64,000 nucleotides of DNA from assembly GCF_040054535.1 (NCBI RefSeq), contig NC_090794.1, forward strand, positions 1,797,501-1,861,500, read 5' to 3'. The DNA comes from Antennarius striatus (taxonomy: Eukaryota > Chordata > Actinopteri > Lophiiformes > Antennariidae). Of this stretch, positions 1 to 21,059 are shown piece by piece (within the stretch, counting starts at the first letter, position 1; the number at the start of each line of letters is the position of its first letter). A program made the translations under genes and the position numbers. Under the pieces are notes generated by a model that made no database searches, was not told the origin of the DNA, and was given only the letters and a program-made list of their open reading frames with translations.

Positions 1-20
1 AAACCAGTCTGTCCAGCATT
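1..20 (-). CDS. Partial exon of a fourth WxxW-domain gene copy
   Basis: The first 20 bases read on the minus strand as the start of a WxxW-domain exon (x-C-W-T-D-W-F), preceded by a CAG acceptor. Bases 1-90 are nearly identical to 8908-8997, which is the start of the first-domain exon of gene B plus its upstream intron, and the same hAT insertion follows in both. The rest of the domain lies outside the window at lower coordinates. No counterpart of the upstream exons (the CDYPTH exon, linker, signal peptide or MFKL exon) is found between 1037 and 4227. This copy is therefore probably cut off from its own 5' end and may be a pseudogene. Confidence 0.6.
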
Positions 21-90
21 CTGTATAAACAGAATTTGAGATGTGATCATCTTGGCATTTGAAACTGCACAACTGAGACTTGGTCTGGAT

Positions 91-1036
91 CACATGTGTC
101 AAAGTCAAGGCCTGGGGACCAAATGTGGCCCGCCACATCATTTTATGTGGCCTGCCAGAGCATAAAAGGTTTGGGGGGAAAATGGCTCAAAATACAGTAT
201 GCTTTGACCAAAAACTACGATGGTTTTCTCTAATGAAGCTGAGCACAAAATCACACAGGAGCCGTCTGACTGATGAACACCTTCACTCTATCTTGAGGGT
301 TTCCTCAGCTCAGAGCCTGACCCGAACATTGATGAACTTGAACAAAAGATGAGACACCATCAACTATCAGGCTCAGCCTCAGACAAGTGTGCATCGCAGA
401 GCAGGAACGTACTTTCAGTTTAAAATTGAGTCAAATTTTTAAATTTGTTTCTACAAGATGTGATGTCTTTTTGAAGGAAGCATTGTTTTGTCTGTGTGCC
501 ATAGATTTTTGTATTTATATTTCAGTTGAATGGACTCAGGGAAAATTGCAGATAAGAGCCATGAGAAGGATACAACTGATTTGACGTTTTGTTTTTTTAC
601 TATTTGAAAGCAGTGATTGGTAGGATTGTATAGAGCAGCACAATTTTTAAAAGTTTTTTAATTTTTTTACACGATAATGCATTATTATTGTTTATGCACA
701 ATATTATTGTTGTGCATGCAATCATGCATCCACGATAGTTTCTTTTCAGTTTATAATGCATGCAATTTCATTCATGCACTTATCTTGATATTAAGGAACA
801 TATTTTTTTTGAAGGACATTAAGCTTTTTTGCCTTTTGAAAATGTTTTCCCTGGAAGTTACTGTCAGAGCCATAACAAAAGATTGCTTTTTTAATTTCAT
901 CATTACACTGTGTTAGCGCTTGGTTCAATAGGCTATGCTCATTTTAATATATTTTAATAAACATTGAACCAGTCCGGCATTCGGCTTATAGCAAATATGT
1001 TTTTTTGCCCTCCGTGTATTTGACTTTGACACCCCT
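91..1036 (+). mobile_element. hAT-like DNA transposon remnant (copy 1)
   Basis: The left end resembles CACATGTGTCAAAGTCA and the right end reads TTTGACTTTGACACCCCT, an inverted pair related to the CAGGGGTGTCAAA ends of hAT elements. Inside, at 225-352, the plus strand encodes SRLTDEHLHSILRVSS followed, after a frameshift, by a NIDEL segment. This resembles the C-terminal end of hAT transposases of the Charlie/GTF2IRD2-like group. It is frameshifted and non-functional. It sits in the intron upstream of the partial WxxW exon at 1-20. The family call rests on remembered similarity, not on a search. Confidence 0.6.
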
Positions 1037-1077
1037 TTTTTAAAAAATCAGACAGATCACAAGTGTGAAGAAGAAGA

Positions 1078-3068
1078 ATAACACTTTAGTAATCCCGAAA
1101 CGGGAAATTCTCTTTACACTCTCCAGCTAGACATACATAAACACATATACAGTGCCTTGCGAAAGTATTGGCCCCCCAAGAACTTCTTGACACTTTGCCA
1201 CATTTCAGGCTTAAAACTTAAAGATAACAAACTGAAAATATTTTTTAAGAAGCGACAACATGTGAGACACAATCGTGAAGTGGAACCAAATTTATTCAAC
1301 ATTTTATATTGTGTTCACAAATAAAAAACTGAAAAGTAGGACGTGCAAAAGTACTGGCCCCCTGTTCTCTCAGCTCAGCTAACTGACTCCAGAAGTTCCC
1401 TGATGACTTCTGAATGATCCAATGTTGACCTAAATGACCAACAATGACAAACAGAGTTCACCTATGTGTCATTTGGTCTCAGTTTAAATGCACCTGCTCT
1501 GTGAAGGTCTCAGAGGTCTGTGAAAAGAATACTGGAGAACAAGCAGCATCATGAAAACCAAAAAACACACCAGGCAGGTCCAGGATAAAGTTGTGGAAAA
1601 GTTCAAAGCAGGAATGGGATACAAGAACATTTCACAATATTTAAAAGTCTCCCGGAGCACTGTACCAGCAATAATATCAAAATGGAGAGAGCATAAAACC
1701 ACTGCAAACCTACCAATACCTGACCGTCCCTAAGCAGGGAAGCAACCAAGAGGCCCATTATCACGCTGGATGACCTGCAGACATACACAGCTGAGGCGGG
1801 ACAATCTGTCCATAAGACAACTACAGTATTTGTCGTACTCTGCATAAATCTGGCCTTTATGGAAGAGTGGAAAGAAGAAAGTCTTTTCTGACAGAAAAAC
1901 AAAAAGATGCCCGTTTGGAGTTTTCAAGAAGCCACATGGTAGACACATGACATGCGGAACTAGGTGCTCTGGTCAGATGAGACCAAAATTGAACTTTTTG
2001 GGCTGAATGCGTACGTTACGTTTTGCGCAAGAGTAACACTGCACATCACTGTGAAAACAGCATCCCCACTGTCAAAAATGGTGGTGGCAGCATCATGCTC
2101 TGTGGTTCCTTTTCTTCAGCTGGGACTGGGAAGATTTTTAGAGTTGATGGGAAGATGGATGGAGCAAAATACAAGGCAATTCTAGCAGAAAATTTGTTGG
2201 AGTCTGTAAAAGACCTGAGGATGGGGTTGGGGGTTCACCTTCCAACAGGACAACAATTCTAAGCATAAACCAAAATCTACAATGGAATGGTTTAAAACTG
2301 ACCATGTAAAGGTGTTAGAATGGCCAAGCCAAAGTCCAGACCTCAATCCAATGGAGCAACTGTGGAAAGATCTGAAAATTGCTGTGCACAAACGATCTCC
2401 ATCAAACCTTGAGGAACTTGAGCTGTTTAGTAAGGAGGAATGGGCAAATATTTCTGTCTCAAGATGTGCAAAACTTATAGAGACATACCCAAAAAGACTT
2501 GCGACTGTGATCGCAGCAAAAGGAAGTTGTACAAAGTATTGACTCAAAGGGGGCCAATACTTTTACACGTCCTACTTTTCAATTTTTTTTTGTAAATACA
2601 ACATAAAATTTTGAATAAATTTGGTTCCACTTCACGATTAGATCTCACATGATGTTGATTCTTAAAAAATATTTTCAATTTGTTATCTTTCAGTTTGAAG
2701 CCTGAAATGTGGCAAAATGTCAAAAAGTTCTTGATGGGCCAATACTTGTGCAAGGCACTGTATGTGCAGGCCCCTGAACAAACACAACACACTAGGGACC
2801 TGTAGGCATGCAGTTAGTATGTAAACATAGGGGGAGGCAGAGTAAAGGATCGCATGAGGGATCGTGCCCCAAATGAGCAGCTTGTGGGGGGGACAGCGCC
2901 TTGCTCGAGGGCGCCTCGGCAGTTGCTGGGAGGTGAGCTGACACCTCCCATCATCAGCTCACACTCCGAAGGATGTCTTGCTGGTAGTGGGAATCGAGCC
3001 GCCGATGGCTGGGTGATGTCTGGTCTTCAAGACATCTGCTCTACCGCTGAGCCACTGCCGCTCCAAAA
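1078..3068 (-). mobile_element. tRNA-headed SINE split by a Tc1-like insertion
   Basis: On the minus strand, 3068-2766 reads as a tRNA-like head (box A-like GTGGCTCAGCGGTAGAGC, then box B-like GGCTCGATTCCC). The body contains the words GAGCAAGGCGCTGTCCCC and GCTGCTCATTTGGG. The typical fish-SINE tail, AAGAGAATTTCCCGTTTCGG, appears only at about 1120-1090, beyond the Tc1-like element at 1150-2760. The Tc1 therefore jumped into the SINE at a TA. A second SINE with the same head and body lies at 24706-24925 on the plus strand. Confidence 0.65.
1150..2760 (+). mobile_element. Full-length but dead Tc1-like transposon
   Basis: The ends are CAGTGCCTTGCGAAAGTATT and its inverted counterpart ending GCAAGGCACTG. 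TA lies on both sides (1148-1149 and 2761-2762), the Tc1/mariner target duplication. The terminal inverted repeats extend roughly 200 bp inward, matching across GTATTGGCCCC and the GAAGTGGAACCAAATTTATT region. The length is 1611 bp. A transposase remnant runs from about 1551 to 2542 on the plus strand: a helix-turn-helix start (MKTKKHTRQVQDKVVEKFKA), LWSDETK carrying the first catalytic Asp near 1970, FQQDNN carrying the second near 2240, and WPSQSPDLNPMEQLW near 2322-2366. Stops and frameshifts break the frame in several places, so it cannot make transposase. Confidence 0.9.
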
Positions 3069-3117
3069 ACCTGGTTAGAGATGCCATGAGGTAGGTGGCA
3101 ATGCCTTAACCGTTTGT

Positions 3118-3830
3118 GTGTTGAAGGCCACAGGGGCCTATTCCATCCTTGTCAAGGGGAGTGCTAACCTTCTCTCCTTTCATATAACACAAGACAATTG
3201 CAATGCAAATCAGAAGACATCGCAATTGTCTCAGTTTCCCTGTGGTCACATTGTTTTCAACCGTTTCTTTGGGTACCGTTGTTTTTGTTCAGACCTGTTT
3301 AATCAGTTTATTTCTTTCTGTTGAACCACTATTAAAAATCAGTCTATTAACCAAAATATGTCACATGTATAGGACTTGACAGCACACCTTCACACAGGTT
3401 TGAAGGGTTTCTTCTACACAGATGTTCAATATCTTTTGGATCAGGACTCATAGAAGTTCATTTCAGAATAGTCCAATGTTTAGCTCTGAGTCATTCAAGG
3501 TTATTTTTAGCTGTGTTTGTATCGTAATCCTGTTGGAAAACCCATGACCTGCAGCTTACAATGGGCAGCACATTCCGCTCCAGAATTCCTTGATGGTATT
3601 GATATTTTATTGTACCCTGTACAGATTTAAGACACCATTTAAGTCACATTGTCTTCAATCGTTTCTTGGGTTACGTTCCTTTTTGACAAGGCCTGTTTGA
3701 CCAGTTTATTTCATTCTGTTGAACCACAATTGAAAATCAGTGTCTGATTAAATACCATTACATTTGTGGTTACCTTTGTGAGATTCAAGTTATTTCAGTG
3801 ACCATGGTGTTTTTCTTTCATTCACAGAGG
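3118..3830 (-). mobile_element. Degenerate Tc1-like remnant, rearranged copy (3' flank of gene A)
   Basis: Blocks here match 6733-7560 in the flank of gene B, for example the words CACACAGGTTTGAAGGG, TTGGAAAACCCATGA and GGGCAGCACATTC. Read on the minus strand the better copy resembles a decayed Tc1-type transposase. Here the middle part (equivalent to about 6975-7370) is missing and the CTTTGGGTACC end block occurs twice (near 3262 and 3662), so this copy is rearranged. It was duplicated along with the WxxW gene rather than inserted twice. Confidence 0.5.
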
Positions 3831-4227
3831 GCTTCATGTTTGCCCTCCCCTCTAGACATGAGCTCATGAACACAGTCCTAATAAACAGAACTAAGATAAA
3901 GAGACAACTTAATGACAAAGCAGCTTTATAGCATTTTTTTGTTTATTGTTGATTGGTTTTCTACAGTCATGACAAGGTTGCTAATGATTTCATGCGAAAA
4001 AAAGGAATAAAGCATCTAACGATCATTTTTCAGAGCCATTAACAGTAACTTTACTAATGGGTGAATGACGTCACATGTGGTCTTACACCGGCTGCCATGG
4101 ATGTTTTTACTGGCAGAATGCATCATGTTTCATACATTGCAGGAAAATGTAAAAGAAAATTCAAGCAAAGGGAAATCAAAATAAATTTTACTTTAACAGT
4201 TGTCTTCCCTGGTTCTCAGCTGTAGAG
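3831..4227 (-). other. 3' UTR and downstream flank of WxxW gene A
   Basis: This block lies just downstream of the gene A stop and aligns with 7575-7924 downstream of gene B, including a shared GACATGAGCTCATGAACAC block. A poly(A) signal AATAAA reads on the minus strand at 3947-3942, about 280 nt after the stop; the equivalent hexamer in the gene B flank is at 7691-7686. Conservation of the hexamer between the two copies supports it as the real 3' end. The cleavage site itself is not visible. Confidence 0.5.
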
Positions 4228-5953
4228 TCATTCTTCTTTGCATGGACATTTGAAGCGAACTTTGTAGTCAAGGCAAGCTCCATCTTGTTGGTCTTCATTA
4301 CGGCAAGCAAATCCTCGATTTGGATTGTATCTGAAAACCAGTTAATAATTCAAGACTGAAGCAAGAAGGTAATATTATAATGATAAGATTTTTCAAGGAA
4401 TAAACTACCAACGACATATATCCTTGGTTACGTAGCTAGCACAACAGAAATATGACTTTTAATGTAATAGTACTGTTGAGAGGGTAGATCTCTTTGTGTA
4501 TTCTCGCTTCAAGGCAACTTACACATGGAAGGTCTCCCCTGTGTTGGCGGCTGCGGTCATCGTTTTGACGGTAACAGCTTCAATTTGCAGTGGGTTTTCA
4601 CAGATTTCGTCCTTGTTTTCCCTCCTGAGGTCACTCAAAGTCTCCCAGTCTCCAGTTCCAGCGGGGTCATCCCTGTCGTACCAATTGGTCCAGCACTCTT
4701 TATCAAGGGATGAAAGACACACCGAGTGATTGTTGAGAAACAGAGTGAAAGCCTCATGTTTGGTTTAGTGCTGTGTATTGGCATTTCACCATGACACATG
4801 TACAATGCTGTGATATAGTACCTTTGGCACAATAGGGGGGCTCGCACATGAAGCGAACTTTATAGTCATTACACATTTTGCCAATGGGCTGCTGGCAGTT
4901 TAAGCAGATGAATCCCTTAATGGTGTCACTTCTGAAAAAGAGACATGGATTTGGTCAAAGTTTATGATCTTGTAGTCATAGTTTATTGGAAATATAGTTT
5001 ATGGTGGTGGTCAAATTTGGTCGGTGGTCAACATACATCATCATTGTTTTTCATCGAACGAAAATTTTTCATTTTTGAAGGTCTTACCTATGAATCACAT
5101 CCCCTGTTTTTGCTGGAGTCATCCCACATTTAGTTTCAGCCTCAATTTGCTTTGGATTAGGGCAGATCTTGCCTGGGTTCTCAGAACGAAGATTTCTGAG
5201 GTCTTCCCAGTCTCCAGTACCAGGGGGGTCATCTCTGTCAAACCAGTCTGTCCAGCATTCTTTATAAACACAAGTTGAAATTGCACAATTGTGAATTCTT
5301 CTAGATGAGTTTTAAATGACAGAACATCCAAACTCAAATCAAATTCACAATGAAATGTGGATGTGGGTGAGGGCTTTTCTGAACAAAGTTGGAAGAAAAG
5401 CAAAACAGAAGGGTTTCAGACTTTTCCAACGAGACACTTTTAACCTCTAGCAGTTTAGAAGAAGGCTGCAAGGCTACATTAAGTTAGAAACTTGACCTTC
5501 AACATCATAATCACAAGGTGAGAAGATGATGACTCAGTTTGTAATGTTTTTGGACCAACATCACATCAACTTCATTTAACCCAAATGTTCTCTTCCTTTT
5601 CCGCAATGACAGTCACATTTCTTTTAAATTTTATCTGAACACACTGACTGCTTACCATGTGGTTCTGATGTGTCATTGTGGTGCTCCTGGTGGCTTTCTG
5701 AAAGAGTAATGAAAGCAATCATAACTGAGTTATTAAAGTTATACTTATGTTCATACTGCCTGCAAGTATTGAGATGCACCTACCAATGAACAATCCTGCA
5801 ACAATGGCAATGCTTAACTGCAAGAAAAGGCGAAAATAAAACAATTTACAATCACAAAATATAATATATTACATACAAATATCTGACACCTATGTAGACA
5901 ATGTCAAAAATGTTTTTCTTTAAAAATATGTAATTAATTACCAGTTTGAACAT
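4228..5953 (-). CDS. WxxW-domain secreted protein, gene A (two domains, intact)
   Basis: Minus-strand coding exons (high to low): 5953-5942 (MFKL), 5817-5784, 5697-5656, 5259-5088, 4931-4822, 4697-4523 and 4330-4228 (TGA). All junctions are GT-AG and all phases join, giving 648 nt, 215 aa. A hydrophobic signal peptide (residues 1 to about 15-20) is followed by a short His/Glu linker with an NDT glycosylation sequon at Asn23. Two WxxW domains follow (about 30-123 and 124-215), each encoded by two exons. They show ECWTDWFDRDDP and ECWTNWYDRDDP, GTGDWE, an IC-x-x-P-x-x-IEA segment, and a closing C-x-DYKVRF-x-C. The domain is known from MUC2/MUC5AC/MUC5B and CILP, where it is an extracellular module. 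The role here is unknown; secretion and mucus or matrix association are inferences from the family. It has the same architecture as gene B, but B's extra small exon survives here only as a relic at 5357-5378. Confidence 0.85.
5357..5378 (-). pseudogene. Relic of the CDYPTH mini-exon in gene A
   Basis: Genes B (9484-9455) and C (13791-13765) each carry a small phase 1-1 exon encoding PCDYPTH before a WxxW domain. At the matching place in gene A the acceptor TTCAG and the flanking bases of the exon survive, but the CTGTGACTATC core is deleted and the donor GTAAG has become ACATT. Gene A must therefore splice from its linker exon straight to the first domain. Both joins are phase 1, so the frame is kept. 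Confidence 0.7.
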
Positions 5954-6330
5954 GTTTGCTAAAGTGGGACCTTTGAATCTGTGGAGAAATGATGACATTT
6001 TTATGAAAACAATTAACTGTGTGTAGTACAGAAATATATTCAAAAACAAATAGAATAATAACATTGCCAAAAATAATTAGAAATAGCATTCTTTGAGTTT
6101 CATCCTCTTCATAGTGAAATTATCTGGATTTAAATGCTGTTTTCAATTAAAACAACATATTCTTTCATAAAAGACAGTTTAAAAGCTGTTTGAACTTCAA
6201 AATAGGATCATTTTTATCCTGAAATAAGTAAAGAGGCTCACCCAAAGGACGTCCTGGTTTGAACAGTGTGGTTCTGTGATCGTCAGCGTCCGTAGTGAGT
6301 CTCTCCTGTCCTTTTCCTTATATACGGCTG
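5942..6330 (-). promoter_or_regulatory. Promoter, 5' UTR exon 1 and start exon of gene A
   Basis: A TATA box reads TATATAAGG on the minus strand (about 6325-6317). Expected transcription starts near 6290. A non-coding exon 1 ends at 6242 with the donor GTGAGC. The start exon (5978-5942) has acceptor CTCCACAG, 25 nt of 5' UTR, then ATG at 5953. The same arrangement and near-identical words, such as ACAGAACCAC and CAGGACGTCCT, occur in gene B (10789-10873), which supports the assignment. Confidence 0.7.
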
Positions 6331-6479
6331 TTCACATTGCTGCTATCAACACCTCCTACTGTACTGCCAGCTCCCACTACCTTTTGGTCATTGATAAGAC
6401 GGCATCTCTGACAATGAATCATAACCTTGAGCAAATTAGAGTCTCAGTTTGTGAAGTTACACAAATACACTTTCAATAC

Positions 6480-6602
6480 CCGTTTCTTCCACTGTTGTGG
6501 GATACAGAGAGAACATGCAAAGTCCACCCAGAGTGGGACTCGAACCTGGAACCGCCTTTCTGTGCCTATACAGCGCTACCCACTACACCACTGTACCACC
6601 CG
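6480..6602 (-). repeat. Dispersed fish repeat with tRNA-like internal words
   Basis: Read on the minus strand it begins GGTGGTACAGTGGTGTAGTG, continues GGTAGCGCTGT and GTTCCAGGTTCGAGTCCC, then runs into TTTGCATGTTCTCTC. This is the recognisable pattern of a very common fish interspersed repeat that carries box A and box B-like words. It lies just upstream of the gene A promoter and has no counterpart upstream of gene B, so it arrived after the duplication or was lost from B. Confidence 0.5.
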
Positions 6603-6732
6603 TTTGTGAAATTCCTCTTTATAATTGTCATGTTACATGAATTTAACTTGGGGTTTTTTTTTCCAGGAACATTTGTAAAGAGACAAATAATAGAGGAACG
6701 CCATTATTTAACATTTATATGATAGAGAGTAA

Positions 6733-7560
6733 ACCTTCACACAGGTTTGAAGGGTTCCTTCTCCACAGATGTTCAATAGGATTTTGATCAGTGCTCACTT
6801 GTGATTGTCCAATTTTTGGCTGTCAGCCATTATTGGGTATTTTTAGCTGTGTTTTAGGTCATTATTCTGTTGGAAAACCCATGAACTGCAACTGACACTG
6901 GGCAGCACATTCTGCTTCAGAATTCCTTGATAGTCTTGATATTTCATTATATCCTGTACAGTTTTAAGACACCTGTGCCTGATACAGCAAATCAGTCCCA
7001 GAACATCACAAAGCCTCCTTCATGTTTCATAGTCACGACAATGTTCTTGAACACAGAGCTGATGCACCCTGATCTTGGAGTACACCTTGAACTTCTTTGG
7101 CAGTTGTTCCGGACTTTTTGGTTTCCGTTCATACTATCGGTCTGTTCAACCATTCTTAATTTTCCTCATGGAATGTTGGCTACACTCACATGGAACTCAA
7201 TCTTCTGAATATGTTGTACTGTACTCATGAGAACTTCAAACTACTTGGAGATAGTCTTATAGTCTTTGCCTTTAACGTGTTTGTCTGTAATCTCTTGAGG
7301 TGACTTGTCCCTACTTGTTACCCTTTAAATGATCAGTTTGAAGACAGCTGTGATGCAAAACAGAGGATCCGTCTTAGTTTCCTTTTGGTCACATTGTCTT
7401 CAGTCATTTCTTTGGATACCATCGTTTTTGTTCAAGCCTGTTTCATGAGTTTATCTCAGTCTGTTGAACCACAATTACAAATCAGTGTCTGATTTTCATT
7501 GGTTAAATTTCATGCCATTTTAATTTGTGGTTACCTTTTGTCAGTTTAGAGTTGTTTTGG
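6733..7560 (-). mobile_element. Degenerate Tc1-like remnant (3' flank of gene B)
   Basis: On the minus strand, between about 6960 and 6745, the translation is full of stops but keeps a short run resembling the NDxKHTAK stretch of Tc1 transposases, followed by a PIEHLW-like end. It is the longer of two related copies (the other is at 3118-3830) and lies between genes A and B. Its ends are not clear. Confidence 0.5.
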
Positions 7561-8997
7561 TGACGACTGTATTTATTAACAGAGGGTTCCATGTTCGCCT
7601 CCCCTCGGGACATGAGCTCATGAACACTGTCCTAATAAACAGAACTAAGGTAAAGAGGGAACTTACAGCATTATTATGTTCATTGTTTATTTGCTTTCTA
7701 CAGTCATGATATAAGGTTGCTGATGATTTCATGTGAGAAAAGAAACCATAAAGCATCTAACAGTCATTTTCCAGAGACGTTAATCATAAATTGTTGGTGA
7801 ATAAAGCCGCACGTTGTGCTGTTACAAGGGCTACCACAAATTCATTGTGTTTCTTCTGTTCTAGAAAAGTATAAAAGAAAATATAAGACTTTGACTGTCT
7901 CTGTTCGCAGACTCAGTTGTAGAGTCACTTTTCGTTGCATGGACATCCAAAGCGAACTTTGTAGTCATGGCAAGCTCCATCTTTCTGGTCTTCATTGCGG
8001 CAAACAAATCCTTGCGTTGGATTGTATCTGAAAATCATTCAATGATTAAGGATTTAAGCAGGAAGGGAATATTTTGGTTTATAAACTACCAAAGCCATAT
8101 ATCCTTGCTTACATAGCCAACACATTAGAAATATGATTTTCAATGCAATGGTACCGTTAGGAGGATAACTGTATTGGTGTGTTCTCACTTCATTGCAACT
8201 TACATATGGATGGTCTCCCCTGTGCTGATTGCTGGGGTCATTGTGTCAATGGTAACAGCTTCGATGTACAATGGAGTTTTACAGATTTCATCTTGAAATT
8301 CCTTCCTGATCAATCAAAGTCTCTCAGTCTCCAGTTCCACTGGGGTTGTCCCTGTCGAACCACCTGGTCCAGCAAACTTCAGTGAACAACAAAAGGCATA
8401 CCAAAAGATTGGTGAGAAAAACGTGAAAGCCTAATTTTTGGTTTAGCGCTGTCTTTAGCAAATAAAAAGAGCACTTGTTCAGTGCTGTGATACAGTACCT
8501 CCACCACCACAGAATGGGGGATGGCAGCTGAAACGGACTTTGTAGTCATTACAAATTTTTCCCTTGGGCTGCTGGGAGTTTAAGCAAATGAATCCAGTTG
8601 TGGTGTCACTTCTGAAAAAGATACAGAATCAAAATATTTCATGATCTTCCAGCCATAGTCAATAGGAGATTGCTGGTAGTCAACTTTGGTAATCTATACA
8701 TTTATATTCCACTCCATTAAAATGATCAAATCATTTTTATTTGTGAAGTTCTTACTTGTGAATCACATCCCCCGTTGCACCTGCAGCCACCCCAGTGAGG
8801 GTCCTGGCCTCAATTTGCACTGGTTTGGGGCAGATTTTCCATTTGTTCTCAGCACGAAGATTGATGAGGGTCTCCCAGTCTCCACTACCAGAGGGGTCAT
8901 CTCTGTCAAACCAGTCTGTCCAACATTCTGTATAAACAGAATTTGAGATGTGATCATCTTGGCATTTGAAACTGCACAATTGAGATTTGGTCTGGAT

Positions 8998-9396
8998 CAC
9001 ATGTGTCAAAGTCAAGGCCTGGGGACCAAATGTGGCCCGCCACATCATTGTATGTGGCCTGCCAGAGCATAAAAGGTCTGGAAAAAAAATGGCTCAAAGT
9101 ACAGTATGCTTTGACCAAAAACTACATTACCCACAATTAAGTAAATAAGCCCATTTTAACTTTGACAAAAATGTTTTGAACAATGTTAATATACTAACTT
9201 GTGTTTGATTTCATAACCTGACAAATCAATGTTATCACAGAGAAACAAGCAAGCATATTTTTTCTCTGCCACTGTAATGTTTGTAACTTAGACTACATTG
9301 AGTGACATTTAGTTACATTTATTAGTTACATCTGGCCCTTTGAGGACAACCGATATGCTGATGTGGCCGTCGGTGAAAATGAGTTAGACACCCCTG
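8998..9396 (+). mobile_element. hAT-like element remnant (copy 2, internally deleted)
   Basis: The left end CACATGTGTCAAAGTCAAGG and its flank match copy 1 at 91 almost exactly, so both come from one insertion that predates duplication of the WxxW unit. The right end is GTTAGACACCCCTG. It lies in the intron between the CDYPTH exon and the first-domain exon of gene B. The transposase segment seen in copy 1 is missing. The bases on the two sides (GTCTGGAT and GTCTACCG) may be a decayed 8-bp target duplication. Confidence 0.6.
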
Positions 9397-12241: not shown

Positions 12242-13644
12242 TTAACCCAAGTGGAACTGATTCTTGCATGGGCATGCAAAGCGAACTTTGTAGTCCAAGC
12301 AGTATCCGAAAATCTGGTCTTTATTTTGGCACACAAATCCTACAGTTGGGTTGTATCTGAAGAAAAGATTCAAAGCGTTTAGTGAATTAGCATCACAGCT
12401 GGAAGACAATTTCCAAACCTAAAACAAAGTATCTCTAGCCTGCAGATTTCATCTGGAATCTTTAGAGAAACTCGAACTGCCTTCTGACGAACTGAATTCA
12501 TCAGTCGTCTAAAAGTCTATCATAAAATCCTTCTGATTCTTTCCCTTTGAGGCAACTTACGTTGAGAAGACCTGCCCTGTGCTGAGGGCTGGTTTATGTG
12601 TGCCGACGACAACAGCTTCAATGAACAGTGGGTATGTACAGATGTCACGTGGATAATTCTTCCTAATCAACGACAAAAGCTCCCAGTCTCCAGTTCCACT
12701 GGGGTCGTCTCTGTCGTACCAACGAGTCCAGCACACTATAGCACGCAGTGAAAGAGATATAGGATGAGTGGTGAGACCATTTAAAGCTTAAAAAACAGTG
12801 CTGTCAATACTGAGAATGGGTGATAACAGATCATTTTCATTAGCAGTTAACAGTGCCTATGTCCATCACTCTAGTACGGTACCTCCTCCACCACAGAAAG
12901 GGGGATGGCAGCTGAAACGGACTTTATAATCTTGACACAGTTTGCCATGTCTTTGGTCATTGTTTCTGCACACGAAGCCGTAAAGGACGTCATTTCTGAA
13001 GAAGACACCCAGAAGACGTTTCATGTAAACAAACTAGTAATCCATCCAAATGTAACATACGATATATACTGTTGAATAACAGTTGTAACAGTTGAATAAT
13101 TTAGTCCTCAACATCATCTCTTCACTACAAGCATGCTAACTCTCAGACAAACCATAGCAGTCCGAAGGAACTGCTATGGTAGTAATAGCTGTAATAAAAT
13201 CTGCTGCCTGCAGATGGCAGTAGTTTGTGCGCGTGAGTAAAAAACACTAAAGAGAAAGCCTTAATCTGAAATAGCTGTAAAGATAAAGTCGTGTTTATTG
13301 CTGGACTGATGATAGTTACACGTTTTATATGTTTCCATTCTGCATCGTTACTGAATTTTCATCGCACAAACAGTCATGGTGACTGCAGTGCTTTGAGGAG
13401 AACAGTGTGACTCACAACCACAAGATTTTTATCCATACTGGTCTTACTTGTGAATCACATCTCCAGTTGCACCTGCAGGCACCCCAAGTAGACTCCTGGC
13501 CTCAATTTCCACTGGTTTGGGGCAGATCTTCCCTGGGTTCTCAGCTCGAAGATTACTGAGGGTTTCCCAGTCTCCAGTACCAGAGGGGTTGTCTCTGTCA
13601 TACCAGTCTGTCCAGCATTCTAGAAAAGGATCATTTAGATTGAG

Positions 13645-13713
<69 letters not shown>

Positions 13714-16700
13714 AAATGTCAAAATGTCGAAACAAAGCAAAAGTTAAAAGTGTGATGTGCTTACGAATGTGGGTGGGATAGTCGCAGGGCTCTTGAAGGA
13801 ACAAAACAAAAGAGAAGGCGTTAGACCTTTCTAAATGCAAACTGAATGGTTCACTTTAGCCTCTGTCAGGATTCATCCTGAGAGGGTTCTCCAACCTGCC
13901 TTTATTTATTTGAAGGGCAGGAAGACACAGTTTTCATTAACATCTTTAAATTGCCTGCTGCAAAACCACCACTGCCGAGATGTCGCAGAAGTTGATTTAA
14001 AGGCACAGTTAAACTGAAAATGAAAATTCTAGCATTATTTACTACCGTCTGTGCTAATGGAAAGTCAGGGTTAGGGTTAGGTTTTGTGCACTAGGATTCT
14101 TACAACATAATCCAAGTCACCGGTGGCGCCAAGATCCCTGATTTATTTGAAAAGACGTTATTTACGACCTTCCGTGAGCTTGAATTTTCAACGTTGTTGC
14201 TAGGCTAAAAGTTCTGAGCATGCAGCTTATCTGAAAAAGGTGCATGAGTTTGTTTGATTAATGTGAGTCTCGAGTCTCTCAAAGGGTTTAGGAGAAATGC
14301 TGCAAAGCTGGGGTGGTGTTGTATTTTGCTCTGTAAACTAAGAAATCTCAAAAGACTTTCCATCAACAGGTAGGAAACAGCTGAATTTTTGAATTTTGGT
14401 TGTAATTTTCTTCATACCTCCATAACAGAAAGAGACAGGGCACTTGAAACGAACTATATAATCATTACACCTCTTCCTCCACCAGGTTTGGTCCTTGTTT
14501 CTGCACACAAATCCAGTTATGACATCATACCTGAAAGAAGAAGAGAAAAATAAACCAATGACGAAGATACTAAACACGTTCCACATAGTTAAGATAAAGT
14601 TCTGTTTGGTGTTGGACTGATCCATTATGAGGTTTCATAAGTTATGATTCTGCAACTCTACCTAATCTTTCATAGCATAGATAGGTGGACAGAGTATCAC
14701 TCCATGCAGTTCTTACCTATAGATAACATCTCCTGTTGAAAATGGATCAACACCAAATCTAGTCTGGGCTTCAATTTGTAACGGAGTTTTGCAGATCTGT
14801 CCCGAAAAGATATCACGAATACGGTTGACGGTTTCCCAGTCTCCAGTTCCGAATGGGCTATCGACGTTAAACCATCTGGTATAGCACTCTAGAACAAAGA
14901 TGTTTGAATTGAAATGTGAACATCAAATATTAGTACTAATAACAATTTAGTTGTGATTTGATCCGGGCGACTTTCAGGTGTCGGTACAAAGGTTGCAAAA
15001 ACAAATGTAACATGAAACGAAAATTACGAGGTGTGGCATACGTAATTAAAGCACAAAGCATTCAGAGCCAAACAGCATTTTATTCTACTTATTTAAAATA
15101 CACAGTTTTCATGTTTCACTTAACCCAAATGTTTCTTCCATATTGCCCACATTTGGCAAGAATTTAATCAGATAACAACGAATTATCTTACCATGTTTGT
15201 TTGGAGGTGGTCTGATCAACCCTAGTAAGAGTAAGGACACAGTCTTAATTTAGTAGTCAGCGAGATTTTTTGGAGTACATTTAAATTCTGTCGCTCCTGT
15301 TTGTTTCATCAAACAAACAAACTTATATTTGGTGAGAATTCTGTCAGTCAGCAGTGATTGTCTTACCAATTGTCGGTTCATCCCTCACTGGGAAAAGTAA
15401 CGACAAACAAATATCTTTATTGAGTAATCAGAGTGGTTTACTGCGTGTACTGTAATTAGATTACATTCTGTTTTTATTTTTTAACAAAGACGGCGTACAG
15501 AATTTCATCCGACTGGGTTGTCTTACCAGGTTGAATGACTACCGGTGCTCGCTCCTCCTGTGAAATTCCTGATAATCAAAACTCACCATGAGTACTTAAA
15601 TAGATGCAATGCTTTTGATTACACATCATTTTCATTGTACTTGTTTGGTTATCATCAAAGAAGGCATGCACATATATTCAGTGAGAATTCCATCAGTCAA
15701 CAGTGATAGTCTTACCATTTTGAGCTGCACCCGAACCGCTCGTTTCTGGTAAAAATAAAGACAAACAAATATCTTTATTTAGTATTTTAAATAAATCTTT
15801 ATGAGTATTTTACGGTGTGTAATTAGATTACATTTAATTCTTGTTTTTTAACAAAGACGGTGTACAGAATTTCATCAGACTAAACAGGTAGAATGTCCCC
15901 TTGTGGTGGCTCATCCTCTGGGAACATAAACAAAACCCACCATGAGTACTTAAGTAGATGCAATGCTTTTGATTACACATCAACTTCATTTTACCTGGGT
16001 TTTTTTGGGGTTTTTTTTTTATTTTTTTTAATTGGTTTGGTTTTCATTTAAGAAAACATGCACATATATTTTTTGATAATTGAATCCAAGACAGTGATAG
16101 TCTTACCATTTTCAGCTGCACCCGAACTACTGCTTTCTGGTAAAAGTAACGACAAATAAATACCTTTATTTAATCAGAGTATTTTACGGAGTGTAATTAC
16201 ATTACATTCCCTTTTTGTTTTTTAACAAAGATGGTGTACAGAATTTCATAAGACTAACCAGGTAGAATGTCCCCTTGTGGTGGCTCATCCTCTGGGAACA
16301 CTGATAAACAAAACCCCCCATGAGTACTTGGGTAGACGCAATGCTTTTGATTACACATCATTTTCATTTTACCTGTTTTTTTTATCTAAAAAAAAATTGG
16401 TTTGGTTTTCATTTAAGAAAACATGCACGTATATTTTTTGAGCATTGAATCCAAGACAGTGATAGTCTTAACATTTTGAGCTGCACCCGAACTGCTCCTT
16501 TCTGGTAAAAGTAACGACAAATAAATATCTTTATTTAATCAGAGTATTTTACGGAGTGTAATTAGATTAGATTTCATTTTTGTTTTTTAACAAAGATGGT
16601 GTACAGAATTTCATAAGACTAACCAGGTAGAATGTCCCCTTGTGATGGCTCATCCTCTGTGAACACTGATAAACAAAACCCCCCATGAGTACTTAAGTAG

Positions 16701-18471
16701 ATGCAATGCTTTTGATTACACATCATTTTCATTTTACCTGTTTTTTGAATTTAGAAAAAAATTGGTTTGGTTTTCATTTAAGAAAACATGCACATATATT
16801 TTTTGAGAATTGAATCCAAGACAGTGATAGTCTTACCATTTTGAGCTGCACCCGAACTGCTCCTTTCTGGTAAAAGTAACGACAAACAAATATCTTTATT
16901 TAATCAGGGTATTTTACGGAGTGTAATTAGATTACATTTAATTTTTGTTTTTTAACAAAGATTGTGTACAGAATTTCATCAGACTAACCAGGTATAACGT
17001 CCCCTTGTGGTGGCTCATCTTCTGGTAACATAAACAAAGGCCACCATGAGTACTTTAGTAGATGCAATGCTTTTGATTACACATCATTTTCATTTTACCT
17101 GTTTGGTTTTCATCAAAGAAGGCATACACCTAAATTCAGTGAGAATTCCATCAGTCAACAGTGATTGTCTTACCGTTTTGAACTACAATCGGTCGCTCGT
17201 TCCCTGGTAAAAGGAACAACAAATAAATGTCTTTGTTGAGTAATCAGAGTGAGTTACTGTGTGTGATTAGATTACATTTCATTTTGGTTTTTAAACAAAG
17301 ACGGTGTACAGAATTTCATCAGACTTACCAAATGGAATGTCCCCTTGTGGTGGCTCATCCTCTGGGAACGTAAATAAACAAAACCCACCATGAGTACTTA
17401 AGTAGATGCAATGCTTTTGATTACACATCATTTTACCTGTTTGGTTTTCATTAAAGGAAATATGCACATATATTTTTTGAGAATTGCATCCAAGACAGTG
17501 ACTGTCTTACCATTCTGAGCTGTACCCGAACTGTTCCCTTCTGGTAAAAGTAGCGACAAACAAATTAATTTATTTAATCAGAGTGTTTTACTGTGTGTAA
17601 TTAGATTACATTTAATTTTTACGTAACCTATTCGTTTTTTAAAAAAACTGCCAGACAGAGTTTCATCAGACTCAAGTAAAAAGTCTTACCGAATTGACCG
17701 TCCACCAGTGGTCAACTCATTATGAGTACTAAACTAGTCTCACTGCTTTTGATTACACATCATTTTCATTCAACCTGTCTGGCTTTCATGAAAGACTGTG
17801 TACACATATTCCATGATTGTTTTACCGTCTCTATTTTCAGCAAATATGTCTTCCCCTGTTAAGAGTAACGACAAACAACACTCGTTGTGAAGGACTTGAT
17901 GCACACATATGATGAGAATTCCATCTGTTAACAGTGATTGTCTTACCGAATACATGCTGAAGAAATACCGCTCCCCCTGCTAAAAAGTGATGACAAACAA
18001 CATTCATCATGGAGGACTTAGTGCATACATTTCATGAGAATTCTGTCAGTCAACACTTATTGTCTTACCTTCTTGAGCTTCAGCCAAATTCCTCCCCACT
18101 GTTAAAAGTAACAACAAACAACTCTCGTCATGGAGGACTTAGTGCACAAATTTGGTGAGAAATCTCTCTAACACCAAACAAAAATCAGTATTCAATCAGA
18201 AATCAGCTAGCTTTATTGCTTATATTAAGATAAAAGTTCATTTTCATTTAACCTCGACAACATCAACAGTCTGCTGCAGGTACTGAGACGCACTTACCGA
18301 AAAACAAGACTGCAACGATGAAAACACTTAACTGTTTGAGAAAAACAAAAAATTACAGTGAAGAAAAACATGATGAAATGCCCACATTTCTCAAAAGAAG
18401 CTGTCAAATCCTGTCTACATTAATAATCTACAAATATGAAATAGAAAGTCACTCGTTACCAGCTTGAACAT
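12242..18471 (-). CDS. WxxW-domain secreted protein, gene C (three domains, microexon-coded linker)
   Basis: Exons on the minus strand: 18471-18460 (MFKL), 18331-18298 (signal peptide), about 18 mini-exons (18098-15192), then 14888-14717, 14530-14418, 13791-13765 (CDYPTH), 13619-13448, 12995-12883, 12735-12561 and 12356-12242 (TAA). Using only mini-exons that keep frame and have a GT donor (14 of 18), the model is 1356 nt, 451 aa. The layout is signal peptide, a linker of about 140 residues rich in Glu/Ser/Pro, then WxxW domains at about 157-251, 261-355 and 356-451. The first domain starts ECYTRWFN, so the first Trp of the WxxW motif is Tyr; the other two keep CWTDW and CWTRW. Domains 2 and 3 with the CDYPTH exon match domains 1 and 2 of gene B, so C looks like the fullest form of the family. 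Function is unknown; an extracellular, mucin-like role is an inference. Which mini-exons are used needs RNA data. Confidence 0.75.
13646..13712. repeat. (GT)n microsatellite in a gene C intron
   Basis: About 33 GT units lie 27 bases before the acceptor of the second WxxW domain exon (minus strand, so CA-rich in the transcript). Intronic CA runs near splice sites can bind hnRNP L; whether this one affects splicing is speculation. Confidence 0.9.
15527..15557 (-). pseudogene. Frame-breaking mini-exon of gene C (31 nt)
   Basis: It has an acceptor and a GTAAG donor but is 31 nt long. The nearby AG alternatives give 28 or 25 nt, none divisible by three. If included, the next exon would reach a TGA at once. 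A one-base insertion relative to the related exon at 17203-17174 explains it. It must be skipped in a productive transcript. Confidence 0.55.
15885..15917 (-). pseudogene. Mini-exon of gene C with lost donor (GT to TT)
   Basis: The 33-nt coding sequence is intact and encodes EDEPPQGDILP, but the donor that reads GTTAGT in its siblings is TTTAGT here. The unit is probably skipped. Confidence 0.65.
16472..16501 (-). pseudogene. Mini-exon of gene C with mutated donor (GTAAG to TTAAG)
   Basis: The 30-nt coding part is intact (ERSSSGAAQN type), and its sibling at 16866-16837 has an identical coding sequence with GTAAG. Here the first intron base is T. A GT one base upstream exists but would change the frame, so skipping is expected. 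Confidence 0.65.
17690..17715 (-). pseudogene. Decayed mini-exon relic in the gene C array
   Basis: A donor CGGTAAG is present, but there is no polypyrimidine tract before the only nearby AG. The 26-nt length breaks frame, and the next AG upstream would bring in a TGA. It occupies the spot where the alternation predicts an exon. Confidence 0.4.
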
Positions 18472-18645
18472 GATTGAAGATAAAGACAAACCCTGTGGAG
18501 AAAATGCCTCATTTAGAAACGACTGAATGAGAAAACTCCATGAAACTTTCTGAAACAATAGCGGCTCACCTGAAAGACGTCTCAGTGGGACGTTATGGAT
18601 GTGTGAGGCTTACTGAGCCTCTGGTCTCCCCTTAAATAGAGTTTA
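18460..18645 (-). promoter_or_regulatory. Promoter, 5' UTR exon 1 and start exon of gene C
   Basis: A TATA-like CTATTTAAG reads on the minus strand at about 18640-18632. A non-coding exon 1 ends at 18570 (CTTTCAG, then GTGAGC). The start exon 18492-18460 has acceptor CTCCACAG and ATG at 18471. The word GAGGCTCAGTA after the TATA box is shared with gene B. Confidence 0.6.
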
Positions 18646-19663: not shown

Positions 19664-21059
19664 CACATATGTCAAACTCAAGGCCCGGGGGCCAAATGTG
19701 GCCCACCACATCATTTTATGTGGCCCGCAAGAGCATAAAAGAGTATTTAAAAATAAATAGATCAAAAGTGTGCTTTTCCAAAGTACATTTCCAACAATGC
19801 ACTAATTAAACCCATTTTAACTCTGACAAAAATGTTCTGAACCAAGTTAATGACATAACTTGTGTTTGATGTTATTTTTCTTTATGTGCTTGAATACTTT
19901 TGATCCTTGATTGATGGAGTTCTGTTGGTTTCATAACCTGGCAAACATAACAGAGCAACAAGCAAACATTTTTGTAACTTGAGTAAATAATAACTTATTA
20001 CTTAACTGAGTTACAAACTGTAATGTTAGGTAACTTGAGTAAGTAATAAGTTATTTAACATTAACGAGTAGATACATTTATTTTACATTTACAGTGGGAC
20101 CTCTACTTACGTATGTCTCTACATACGAAATTTTCTACTTACAAAATTCCTCAACAGGAAAATATTGCCTATAGTTATGAAAGAAATTTCGAGTTACGAA
20201 AGGTAAAAATACAGTATGGGCTGCTACTCACAGCTCCCACAGGTTCCTGAACGCGACATTCTTATAACTGCTCTGCAATTGGCTATTACCTAGTATCCTG
20301 GCATCCCATTGGCTAAGAGGGACCTCTGTGTGTAGCTAGATAGGAGTCTATGCAGCGTCCTCGTCATTCGGCCCTCGACCCGTGAGGTGTTTTGATAGTT
20401 TTACGTAAATATATTAACTTTTAGAGTATTCACTATGGACCCCAAGAAAGTGACGGAGAAAAGAGGAAAAGAAAAGACGAAGAAAATAGATTTTTTTTCC
20501 GTACAAACAAAGCAAGAAGTCATAGAAAAGCCTGAAAAAGGGATGCGTTTGGTTGATCTCACCAAAGAATTTGGCCGTAATGCATCTCAATCACCACGTT
20601 ATTAAAACAAAAGGAAGTTTAAGGAGTTTAAGGCATCGCGTGGGTGGTTGGAGAAGTTCAGAAGGAGGACTGGATTCACTCTGTTGTTCATGGTGAGATA
20701 GGAGCATATGAACCAGAGAGGGCAAAAAAACCACTATTTGTTTTTTACATTGTGCACAACTCTCATTTATTGTGTAATAATCTAATTGTAACATGTATTT
20801 GTCACATGTTTTGATGCATTTTTATGCTTTATAAATTTATGTCTGAATTTTTTGGGGCTTGGAACGGATTAGGGCATTTGCATGGAAAATGTGTCTCTAC
20901 TTATGAAATTTTCTACTTACGAAATTTCTTCCAGAACCAATTAATTTCATAAGTAGAGGTACCGCTGTATTTTACACTACATTGAGTAACATTTAGTTAC
21001 ATTCACAAGTTACATCTGGCCCTTTGAGGACAGCCGTTAAGCTGACTTTGACACCCCTG
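19664..21059 (+). mobile_element. hAT-like element (copy 3) with nested Tigger-like element
   Basis: The left end CACATATGTCAAACTCAAGG and right end TGACTTTGACACCCCTG are inverted. The flanks GTCTATTG (19656-19663) and GTCTATTA (21060-21067) form an almost perfect 8-bp target duplication, as expected for hAT. Without the 876-bp insert at 20092-20967 it would be about 520 bp, close to copies 2 and 4. It is a non-autonomous or deleted form. Confidence 0.75.
20092..20967 (+). mobile_element. Pogo/Tigger-like DNA transposon remnant
   Basis: The ends are CAGTGGGACCTCTACTTACG and, inverted, CAGCGGTACCTCTACTTATG. TA lies on both sides (20090-20091 and 20968-20969). Inside, an ATG at 20434 starts MDPKKVTEKRGK and continues into KQEVIEKPEKGMRLVDLTKEF, resembling the CENP-B-type N-terminal DNA-binding region of Tigger transposases. 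The DDE part is deleted. It is nested in the hAT-like element, so it is the younger of the two. Confidence 0.8.

Follow-up and report, generated by a model that had tools for sequence, protein, structure and literature searches.

A tandem array of symmetric mini-exons in the linker region of a predicted secreted CysD protein gene of Antennarius striatus, a candidate case of a sequence-tolerant spacer that evolves by the birth and death of its units

Introduction

The PEVK region of titin is described, in excerpts of PMC6469411, as a vertebrate array of short repeated exons in which duplication and loss change the size of the region and splicing varies the length of the spacer. In the MEG genes of schistosomes, a signal peptide is followed by tiny symmetrical exons, and the mature part of the protein evolves faster than the signal peptide; these genes appear restricted to platyhelminths (excerpts of PMC4350168). 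Here we analyse a 64,000-nucleotide stretch of the Antennarius striatus genome, called the window throughout (contig NC_090794.1, hereafter C19, positions 1797501-1861500), in which a predicted gene carries 18 tandem mini-exon slots between its signal peptide and the first of its CysD (WxxW) domains. With a probability of about 0.6, we take the array to be the expanded linker region of a tandem-cluster gene for a secreted, CysD-only, mucin-like teleost protein, shaped by the birth and death of units of a sequence-tolerant spacer.

As in titin PEVK, duplication has multiplied in-frame spacer exons in tandem. Titin, however, is a giant protein of muscle whose exons are documented in transcripts, and the present exons are predicted ones; no sequence relation is expected. 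Like the MEG genes, the present gene has small symmetric exons after its signal peptide, but only the linker is micro-exonic here and conventional CysD exons come after it, and no homology is claimed.

By architecture, the predicted protein most closely resembles the CysD-only 'Mucin-5AC' of fishes, a likeness that does not imply orthology. Excerpts of PMC11765562 describe this family as having a signal peptide and 2-27 CysD/WxxW domains across fishes, without VWD or PTS region, with 2 CysD domains in the relatives from medaka, tilapia and pufferfish. According to the same excerpts, zebrafish muc5AC (XM_684482) is a CysD-only protein secreted from neuromast support cells and a likely component of the lateral-line cupula, and its mutants have shorter cupulae; the mutation is a frameshift in exon 8 that leaves one complete CysD domain, which would fit several small exons ahead of the second CysD. 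No mini-exon array was seen in that family in the excerpts, and the words "linker" and "splic" are absent from the main text of that paper. Tandem amplification within mucin-5AC genes has been described for the WxxW repeats, and concerns WxxW units (excerpts of PMC8831618). In snake venom genes, the process named ASSET switches exon segments to unrelated sequence, while the introns stay alike and the signal exon is conserved (excerpts of PMC2711939).

The original prediction, made from the letters of this DNA, knew of no described teleost gene with such a layout. A word search of one open library found, among the matches listed, no vertebrate secreted gene combining these principles, a result that leaves absence unproven; the principle itself and the CysD-only fish family are already in print. 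If transcribed as read, the gene would show inside a single vertebrate locus how symmetric mini-exons arise, decay and diverge, where dead, recent and old copies adjoin and eight simpler paralogues provide the baseline. It would likewise allow a direct test of whether selection sees the length of a spacer, and not its sequence, in a secreted gel protein, and would be relevant to a family of proteins associated with the cupula of the lateral line.

Results

Anatomy of the gene and its array

The gene lies on the minus strand at ~18640-12242 of the window and is, on that strand, the first gene of a tandem cluster. Positions below are those of the window unless a contig is named. Exons 2 and 3 encode a signal peptide, judged by eye, that reads MFKLLSVFIVAVLFF. 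Outside the array we annotated the following features.

18570..18640, minus strand: putative start, by eye, with a TATA-like element TATTTAAG at ~18638-18631 and a 5' untranslated region (5'UTR) exon 1 ending CAG/GTGAGC near 18570
18460..18492, minus strand: exon 2, end of the 5'UTR and start codon (MFKL)
18298..18331, minus strand: exon 3, remaining signal peptide (LSVFIVAVLFF), phase 1 end
14717..14888, minus strand: CysD1, first exon
14418..14530, minus strand: CysD1, second exon
13765..13791, minus strand: linker mini-exon EPCDYPTHI, 27 nucleotides (nt), at the CysD1/CysD2 boundary
13448..13619, minus strand: CysD2, first exon
12883..12995, minus strand: CysD2, second exon
12561..12735, minus strand: CysD3, first exon
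12242..12356, minus strand: CysD3, second exon with stop codon (stop at 12242)

The slots of the array, in the order of transcription, are as follows.

18069..18098, minus strand: mini-exon a1, 30 nt, VGRNLAEAQE
17947..17979, minus strand: mini-exon a2, 30 or 33 nt (NAGNAG acceptor), GGAVFLQHVF
17826..17855, minus strand: mini-exon a3, 30 nt, GEDIFAENRD, weaker donor GTAAAA
17689..17714 (approximate limits), minus strand: b0, degenerate B-type, without usable acceptor
17511..17540, minus strand: mini-exon A1, 30 nt, EGNSSGTAQN
17329..17361, minus strand: mini-exon B1, 33 nt, EDEPPQGDIPF, donor GTAAGT
17174..17203, minus strand: mini-exon A2, 30 nt, GNERPIVVQN (diverged)
16989..17021, minus strand: mini-exon B2, 33 nt, EDEPPQGDVIP, atypical donor GTTAGT
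16837..16866, minus strand: mini-exon A3, 30 nt, ERSSSGAAQN
16624..16656, minus strand: mini-exon B3, 33 nt, EDEPSQGDILP, donor GTTAGT
16472..16501, minus strand: A4, exon identical to A3 (30/30), donor TT for GT, no in-frame splicing
16259..16291, minus strand: mini-exon B4, 33 nt, EDEPPQGDILP, donor GTTAGT
16107..16136, minus strand: mini-exon A5, 30 nt, ESSSSGAAEN
15885..15917, minus strand: B5, exon identical to B4 (33/33), donor TT for GT, no in-frame splicing
15716..15745, minus strand: mini-exon A6, 30 nt, ETSGSGAAQN
15527..15568, minus strand: mini-exon b6, 42 nt, GISQEERAPVVIQP, B-type (24/33 to B4), upstream AG acceptor, phase 1 open
15367..15387, minus strand: mini-exon a7, 21 nt, VRDEPTI
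15192..15221, minus strand: mini-exon a8, 30 nt, GLIRPPPNKH

These 18 slots fill the interval 18098-15192 from the signal-peptide exon to the first CysD exon (14888), in the order a1, a2, a3, b0, A1, B1, A2, B2, A3, B3, A4, B4, A5, B5, A6, b6, a7, a8. Type A accounts for eleven of them (30 nt, in one case 21 nt) and type B for seven (33 nt, in one case 42 nt, and one degenerate). The limits given in the original prediction are exact, the first mini-exon starting at 18098 and the last ending at 15192, and the phase 1-1 exons, the two peptide types and the duplicated introns that it described were all found. Its figure of about 18 mini-exons is right for the slots, three of which (b0, A4, B5) are unusable in frame. 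The alternation of 30- and 33-nt exons that it proposed begins at b0 (about 17.7 kb) and continues to a7. It is preceded by three A slots about 122 bp apart, the array closes with two A slots in a row, and 21- and 42-nt exons also occur.

Fifteen of the 18 slots are live, with intact GT-AG sites, an open phase 1-1 frame and a length of 21-42 nt. The dead ones are b0, which has no usable acceptor, and A4 and B5, in which the donor GT is replaced by TT and splicing at the GT that lies one base further upstream would disrupt the frame. Introns separating live exons measure 91-361 nt, the longest ones spanning a dead slot. In most A slots the acceptor tail is TTTGTCGTTACTTTTACCAG or a variant of it and the donor is GTAAGA; the B slots have other common flanks. 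Because the exons are symmetric (phase 1-1), the gain, loss or skipping of any live slot leaves the protein in frame. In silico, the signal-peptide exon joined directly to the first CysD exon is open to the same stop, as had been expected, and other subsets are frame-neutral because of the exon lengths.

With all 15 live mini-exons included, the frame is intact and encodes 465 aa, of which 155 aa form an acidic linker (net charge about -25; 14% Glu, 12% Pro, 11% Gly, 8% Ser, 2% Thr); micro-exons then account for one third of the coding region (465/about 1398 nt), and not for the greater part of it as in the MEG genes. Downstream of the array lie three CysD domains, two exons apiece. A Pfam search with E up to 0.1 returned only PF13330 (E 1.4e-69), in three stretches; the predicted location in a WxxW protein is supported, as is the signal peptide by eye. 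A signal peptide with at least two CysD domains is shared with the fish CysD-only family, as is the lack of VWD, VWC, CK and PTS regions, judged at that threshold and from the content of threonine, serine and proline in the linker. Compared with the Protein Data Bank (PDB), the CysD part matched the CysD domains of MUC2, MUC5AC and MUC5B (6tm6, 8ov0, 8oer; E 1.2e-8 to 4.9e-7), the linker gave no match at E up to 1, and the present protein differs from those gel-forming mucins in having PF13330 as its only Pfam family. The product is probably a component of a gel or of mucus, where the length of the spacer may influence the spacing of CysD contacts.

The likeness of A2 (17203-17174) to b6 (15568-15527), one of 136 pairs, was reached in 0 of 1000 shuffles; that A and B slots have swapped exon content is a possible lead only. 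The slight likeness of a7 to the B exons gave no pair with p of 0.02 or below. An alternative description of b6 as a scrambled exon was dropped, the local alignment giving 24/33 identity to B4.

Repeat ladder and comparison with chance

Tandem Repeats Finder reported a period of 365 with 3.6 copies and 91% matches at 15803-17104, and a single direct-repeat family showed spacings of 365, 365, 340 and 334, in agreement with the ladder at about 365 bp that had been anticipated. A 371-base repeat-unit probe had 7 matches in the genome (548 Mb, 42 contigs), all 7 inside the array, in a search that skipped very common words and so leaves absence elsewhere unproven. An ancestral linker of one or two exons, leading from the signal peptide to CysD, may have been multiplied by tandem duplication into 18 slots. 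Judging from the repeat structure, an A unit of ~122 bp would have been copied first and an A+B unit of 365 bp later, with repeat-mediated duplication adding units and splice-site or deletion losses taking them away.

Candidate exons were scanned with an acceptor cut-off of 4.5 and a donor cut-off of 4.0, using hand-entered splice matrices and cut-offs set with the exons already known. The array strand of the 2.9-kb stretch gave 16 phase-1 open candidates (the 15 exons and the second a2 acceptor) and the opposite strand gave 1. The former figure lies far above chance: 200 Markov-1 shuffles of the same stretch averaged 0.89 candidates and never exceeded 4. No other 2.9 kb of the window held more than 6 candidates (minus strand) or 3 (plus strand). 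Among nine representative exons, one per recognisable lineage by our own choice, the coding phase had no stop in 92 codons while the other phases had 4/92 and 5/83; the chance of zero stops is 1.1e-3 at the intron stop rate.

Exon and intron divergence within the array

We compared the divergence of exons and introns in four ways: without gaps, in one gapped global alignment, by scores that allow 30-mers of exon and flank equal freedom, and in a recount without a7. Without gaps, the recent copies (A1, A3-A6; B1-B5) have an exon identity about equal to their intron identity, and several pairs with A2, a2, a8, a1 or a3 have exons much less alike than their introns, with very small p-values for some pairs. 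Gapped alignment weakened most of these, and general positive selection is therefore not claimed; with gaps, none of the 15 B pairs differed by 0.15 or more. By the equal-freedom scores, on which unrelated 30-mers average -0.06 (95% level 0.13), the exon had a lower score than either near flank in 13 of the 21 pairs formed by the seven older A exons and a higher one than either in 2. Since the low scores of a7 partly reflect its being 9 nt short, it was omitted from the recount, where the exon was below both flanks in 8 and above both in 2 of the 15 pairs of the six older 30-nt A exons. Ten of these 15 pairs have a flank above 0.13, clearly homologous; the exon lay under that flank in 10/10, exceeded 0.13 itself in 2/10 and fell in the range of unrelated 30-mers in 8/10.

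The cleanest case is a1-a2, with an exon score of -0.07 and flank scores of 0.67 and 0.53 (ungapped p 1.5e-4, gapped p 0.051). An exon that scores as unrelated between homologous flanks would be reminiscent of ASSET as excerpted above, more weakly so when gaps are free; the present case would differ in lying in the linker of a non-venom family and in being clear only for some exon pairs and dependent on the method. Splice signals and frame seem to have been retained in the older slots: in the seven older A slots the ungapped anchored identity is 0.72 over the last 20 intron bases and 0.91 over the first 10, and 0.38 and 0.45 at the adjoining exon ends. There is some sign, partly method-dependent, that some older exons have diverged past their flanking introns, and no sign of selection on the mini-exon peptide, the peptides of the copies being unconserved. 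In the older slots, selection would seem to hold splice signals, frame and freedom from stops and not the peptide. The array may thus act as a tolerant, fast-drifting acidic spacer that sets the three CysD domains off from the N-terminus, its length loosely held.

A number of results weigh against our favoured explanation. The scans demanded a length divisible by three and the lack of a stop, a bias that is limited and not removed by the 18 slots having been set, dead ones included, by common flanks and repeat spacing; at shuffled exon composition, zero stops has only p 0.0095. With free gaps, exon identity falls short of intron identity by 0.15 or more in 9/55 A pairs and exceeds it by that margin in 6/55; six of the 9 involve a7, in which the 9 missing nt are scored as gaps in that alignment. 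Median flank scores in the 21 older A pairs are 0.00, 0.20 and -0.03, near the unrelated level, and the choice of the better flank in the recount favours introns. Deeper intron bases of the seven older A slots (0.40, 0.42) are, when compared without gaps, as diverged as the exon ends. The exon and intron pairs are not independent, and A2-a7 reaches only p 0.047 on substitutions alone. Finally, the donor is lost in 2 of the 10 exons of the young core, which fits no selection on single copies.

Some of these observations bear on the explanation that the array is a mostly silent repeat, a tandem duplication within an intron whose exons mostly stay out of the mRNA, with the short form as the working protein. 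Such a repeat would account for the drift of the young copies at the intron rate, where 13 nonsynonymous and 3 synonymous differences separate the recent copies from the references A3 and B4, close to the site ratio of 49:14, as well as for the death of 3/18 slots and the open frame of the short form. The older slots are strongly diverged yet keep splice sites, frame and stop-free codons, and GC content is 0.50 in the exons compared to 0.32 in the introns; we consider a silent repeat distinctly unlikely.

The paralogue cluster and the origin of the array

Nine genes form the tandem cluster, their signal-peptide exons ending near C19 1815837, 1807864, 1803329, 1794489, 1785582, 1776639, 1771136, 1766642 and 1760439, and CysD exons come after every one of them. 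A genome search with PF13330 gave at least 60 matches, at least 41 of them on C19 in the cluster, at least 13 in one open frame on contig C1 and at least 6 elsewhere. The C1 frame (C1:4771222-4778376; 2538 codons, 13 CysD matches) probably belongs to a large mucin.

A filtered scan revealed no array in the eight paralogues, which have one or two linker mini-exons apiece. Measured between aligned splice sites, their linker exon is 42, 45, 57 or 63 nt long, compared to 21, 30, 33 and 42 nt for the live exons of the array, and it is likewise phase 1-1. A second, 30-nt phase 1-1 candidate is present in 7/8, being doubtful at 1771136 and having a weak donor in four near-identical copies. Symmetric linker exons thus look ancestral to the cluster and appear to have been expanded in the array gene. 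Among five paralogues (three near-identical ones dropped), identity is 94-100% in the signal-peptide exon, 74-84% in introns, 85-100% in splice regions and 52-84% in the linker exon. The linker exon is below intron identity in 8/10 pairs, five of them with p under 0.05 and a sixth with p 0.050; the pairs mostly represent one split between two groups.

A peptide like EPCDYPTHI, which lies between CysD1 and CysD2 in the array gene, precedes CysD1 at 1807864 (KPCDYPTHI) and 1766642 (EPCYYPTHI), and the array gene has three CysD domains where tblastn found two in its neighbours (at 1771136 one of them without a match for its second half). Taken together, the position of this peptide and the third CysD suggest that the array plus CysD1 may be an added N-terminal unit.

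In C19:1773301-1806625, which in part is window 1-9125, CysD genes stand in units of ~9 kb that are 97-99.5% identical over long stretches. In-frame stops occur in CysD exons of several paralogues (window 8374-8315; C19:1797200-1797096, 1788127-1788068, 1779216-1779157 and others), some of them common to tandem copies, and part of the cluster may therefore be decaying. Near-identical repeats and stops of this kind next to the array gene could point to an assembly artefact or a pseudogene. The 300-nt repeat copies of the array, however, are 5-40% off the reference copy and so are not duplicated reads, the 80-kb stretch retrieved contains no N, and the gene's own coding sequence is intact, which makes either fault very improbable.

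Inclusion of the mini-exons

The mini-exons are probably spliced in, most live ones entering the mRNA. Donor scores (from the matrices described above) were 6.7 for B2-B4, 4.8 for a3 and 8.8 for five A exons; the weak exons (B2-B4 with GTTAGT, a3 with GTAAAA) would be facultative and the likeliest to be skipped. This unevenness is one of the features that a regulated splice ladder could explain, in which subsets are alternatively included and one gene yields many linker lengths, like titin PEVK. Every live exon being symmetric, the NAGNAG acceptor at a2 and the intron lengths noted above are also consistent with it. Dead copies and drift suggest weak control, however, and since the linker exons of the paralogues are symmetric too, the symmetry is not an adaptation to a ladder. 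A ladder of products, controlled or as noise, is possible, and we hold its regulated form only tentatively.

Alternatively, the linker could be constitutive, with all 15 live exons included in one 155-aa spacer and A4, B5 and b0 always skipped. Most sites score well by these matrices and the all-inclusive frame is open, in keeping with such a product, whereas two dead donors among ten core exons show that a precise count of exons is not essential. Small exons (21-42 nt) whose donors are of uneven strength are often skipped, which also counts against a constitutive linker, and we judge it less likely than not, to the same degree as the regulated ladder. That the array is a splicing-adjustable extracellular spacer, a counterpart of titin PEVK and the MEG genes with frame-neutral mini-exons and peptides outpacing their introns, by which one locus would supply many lengths for a mucus or cupula gel, seems to us unlikely. 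The expanded linker with loosely held length, as set out above, is the explanation that we prefer.

TGCATG, which we take to be an RBFOX-type motif and a possible splicing-regulator site, occurs at 15665, 16057, 16422 and 16787 on the minus strand, ~50 nt downstream of A6, A5, A4 and A3; being homologous copies, these count as one observation.

Neighbouring features

The cluster has as its neighbour the C-terminal part of a single-minded gene on the plus strand (window 60040-60816; SIM_C, E 1.3e-49). At about 20430-20640, the window resembles a fragment of a pogo/Tigger-type transposase gene, a likeness judged by eye.

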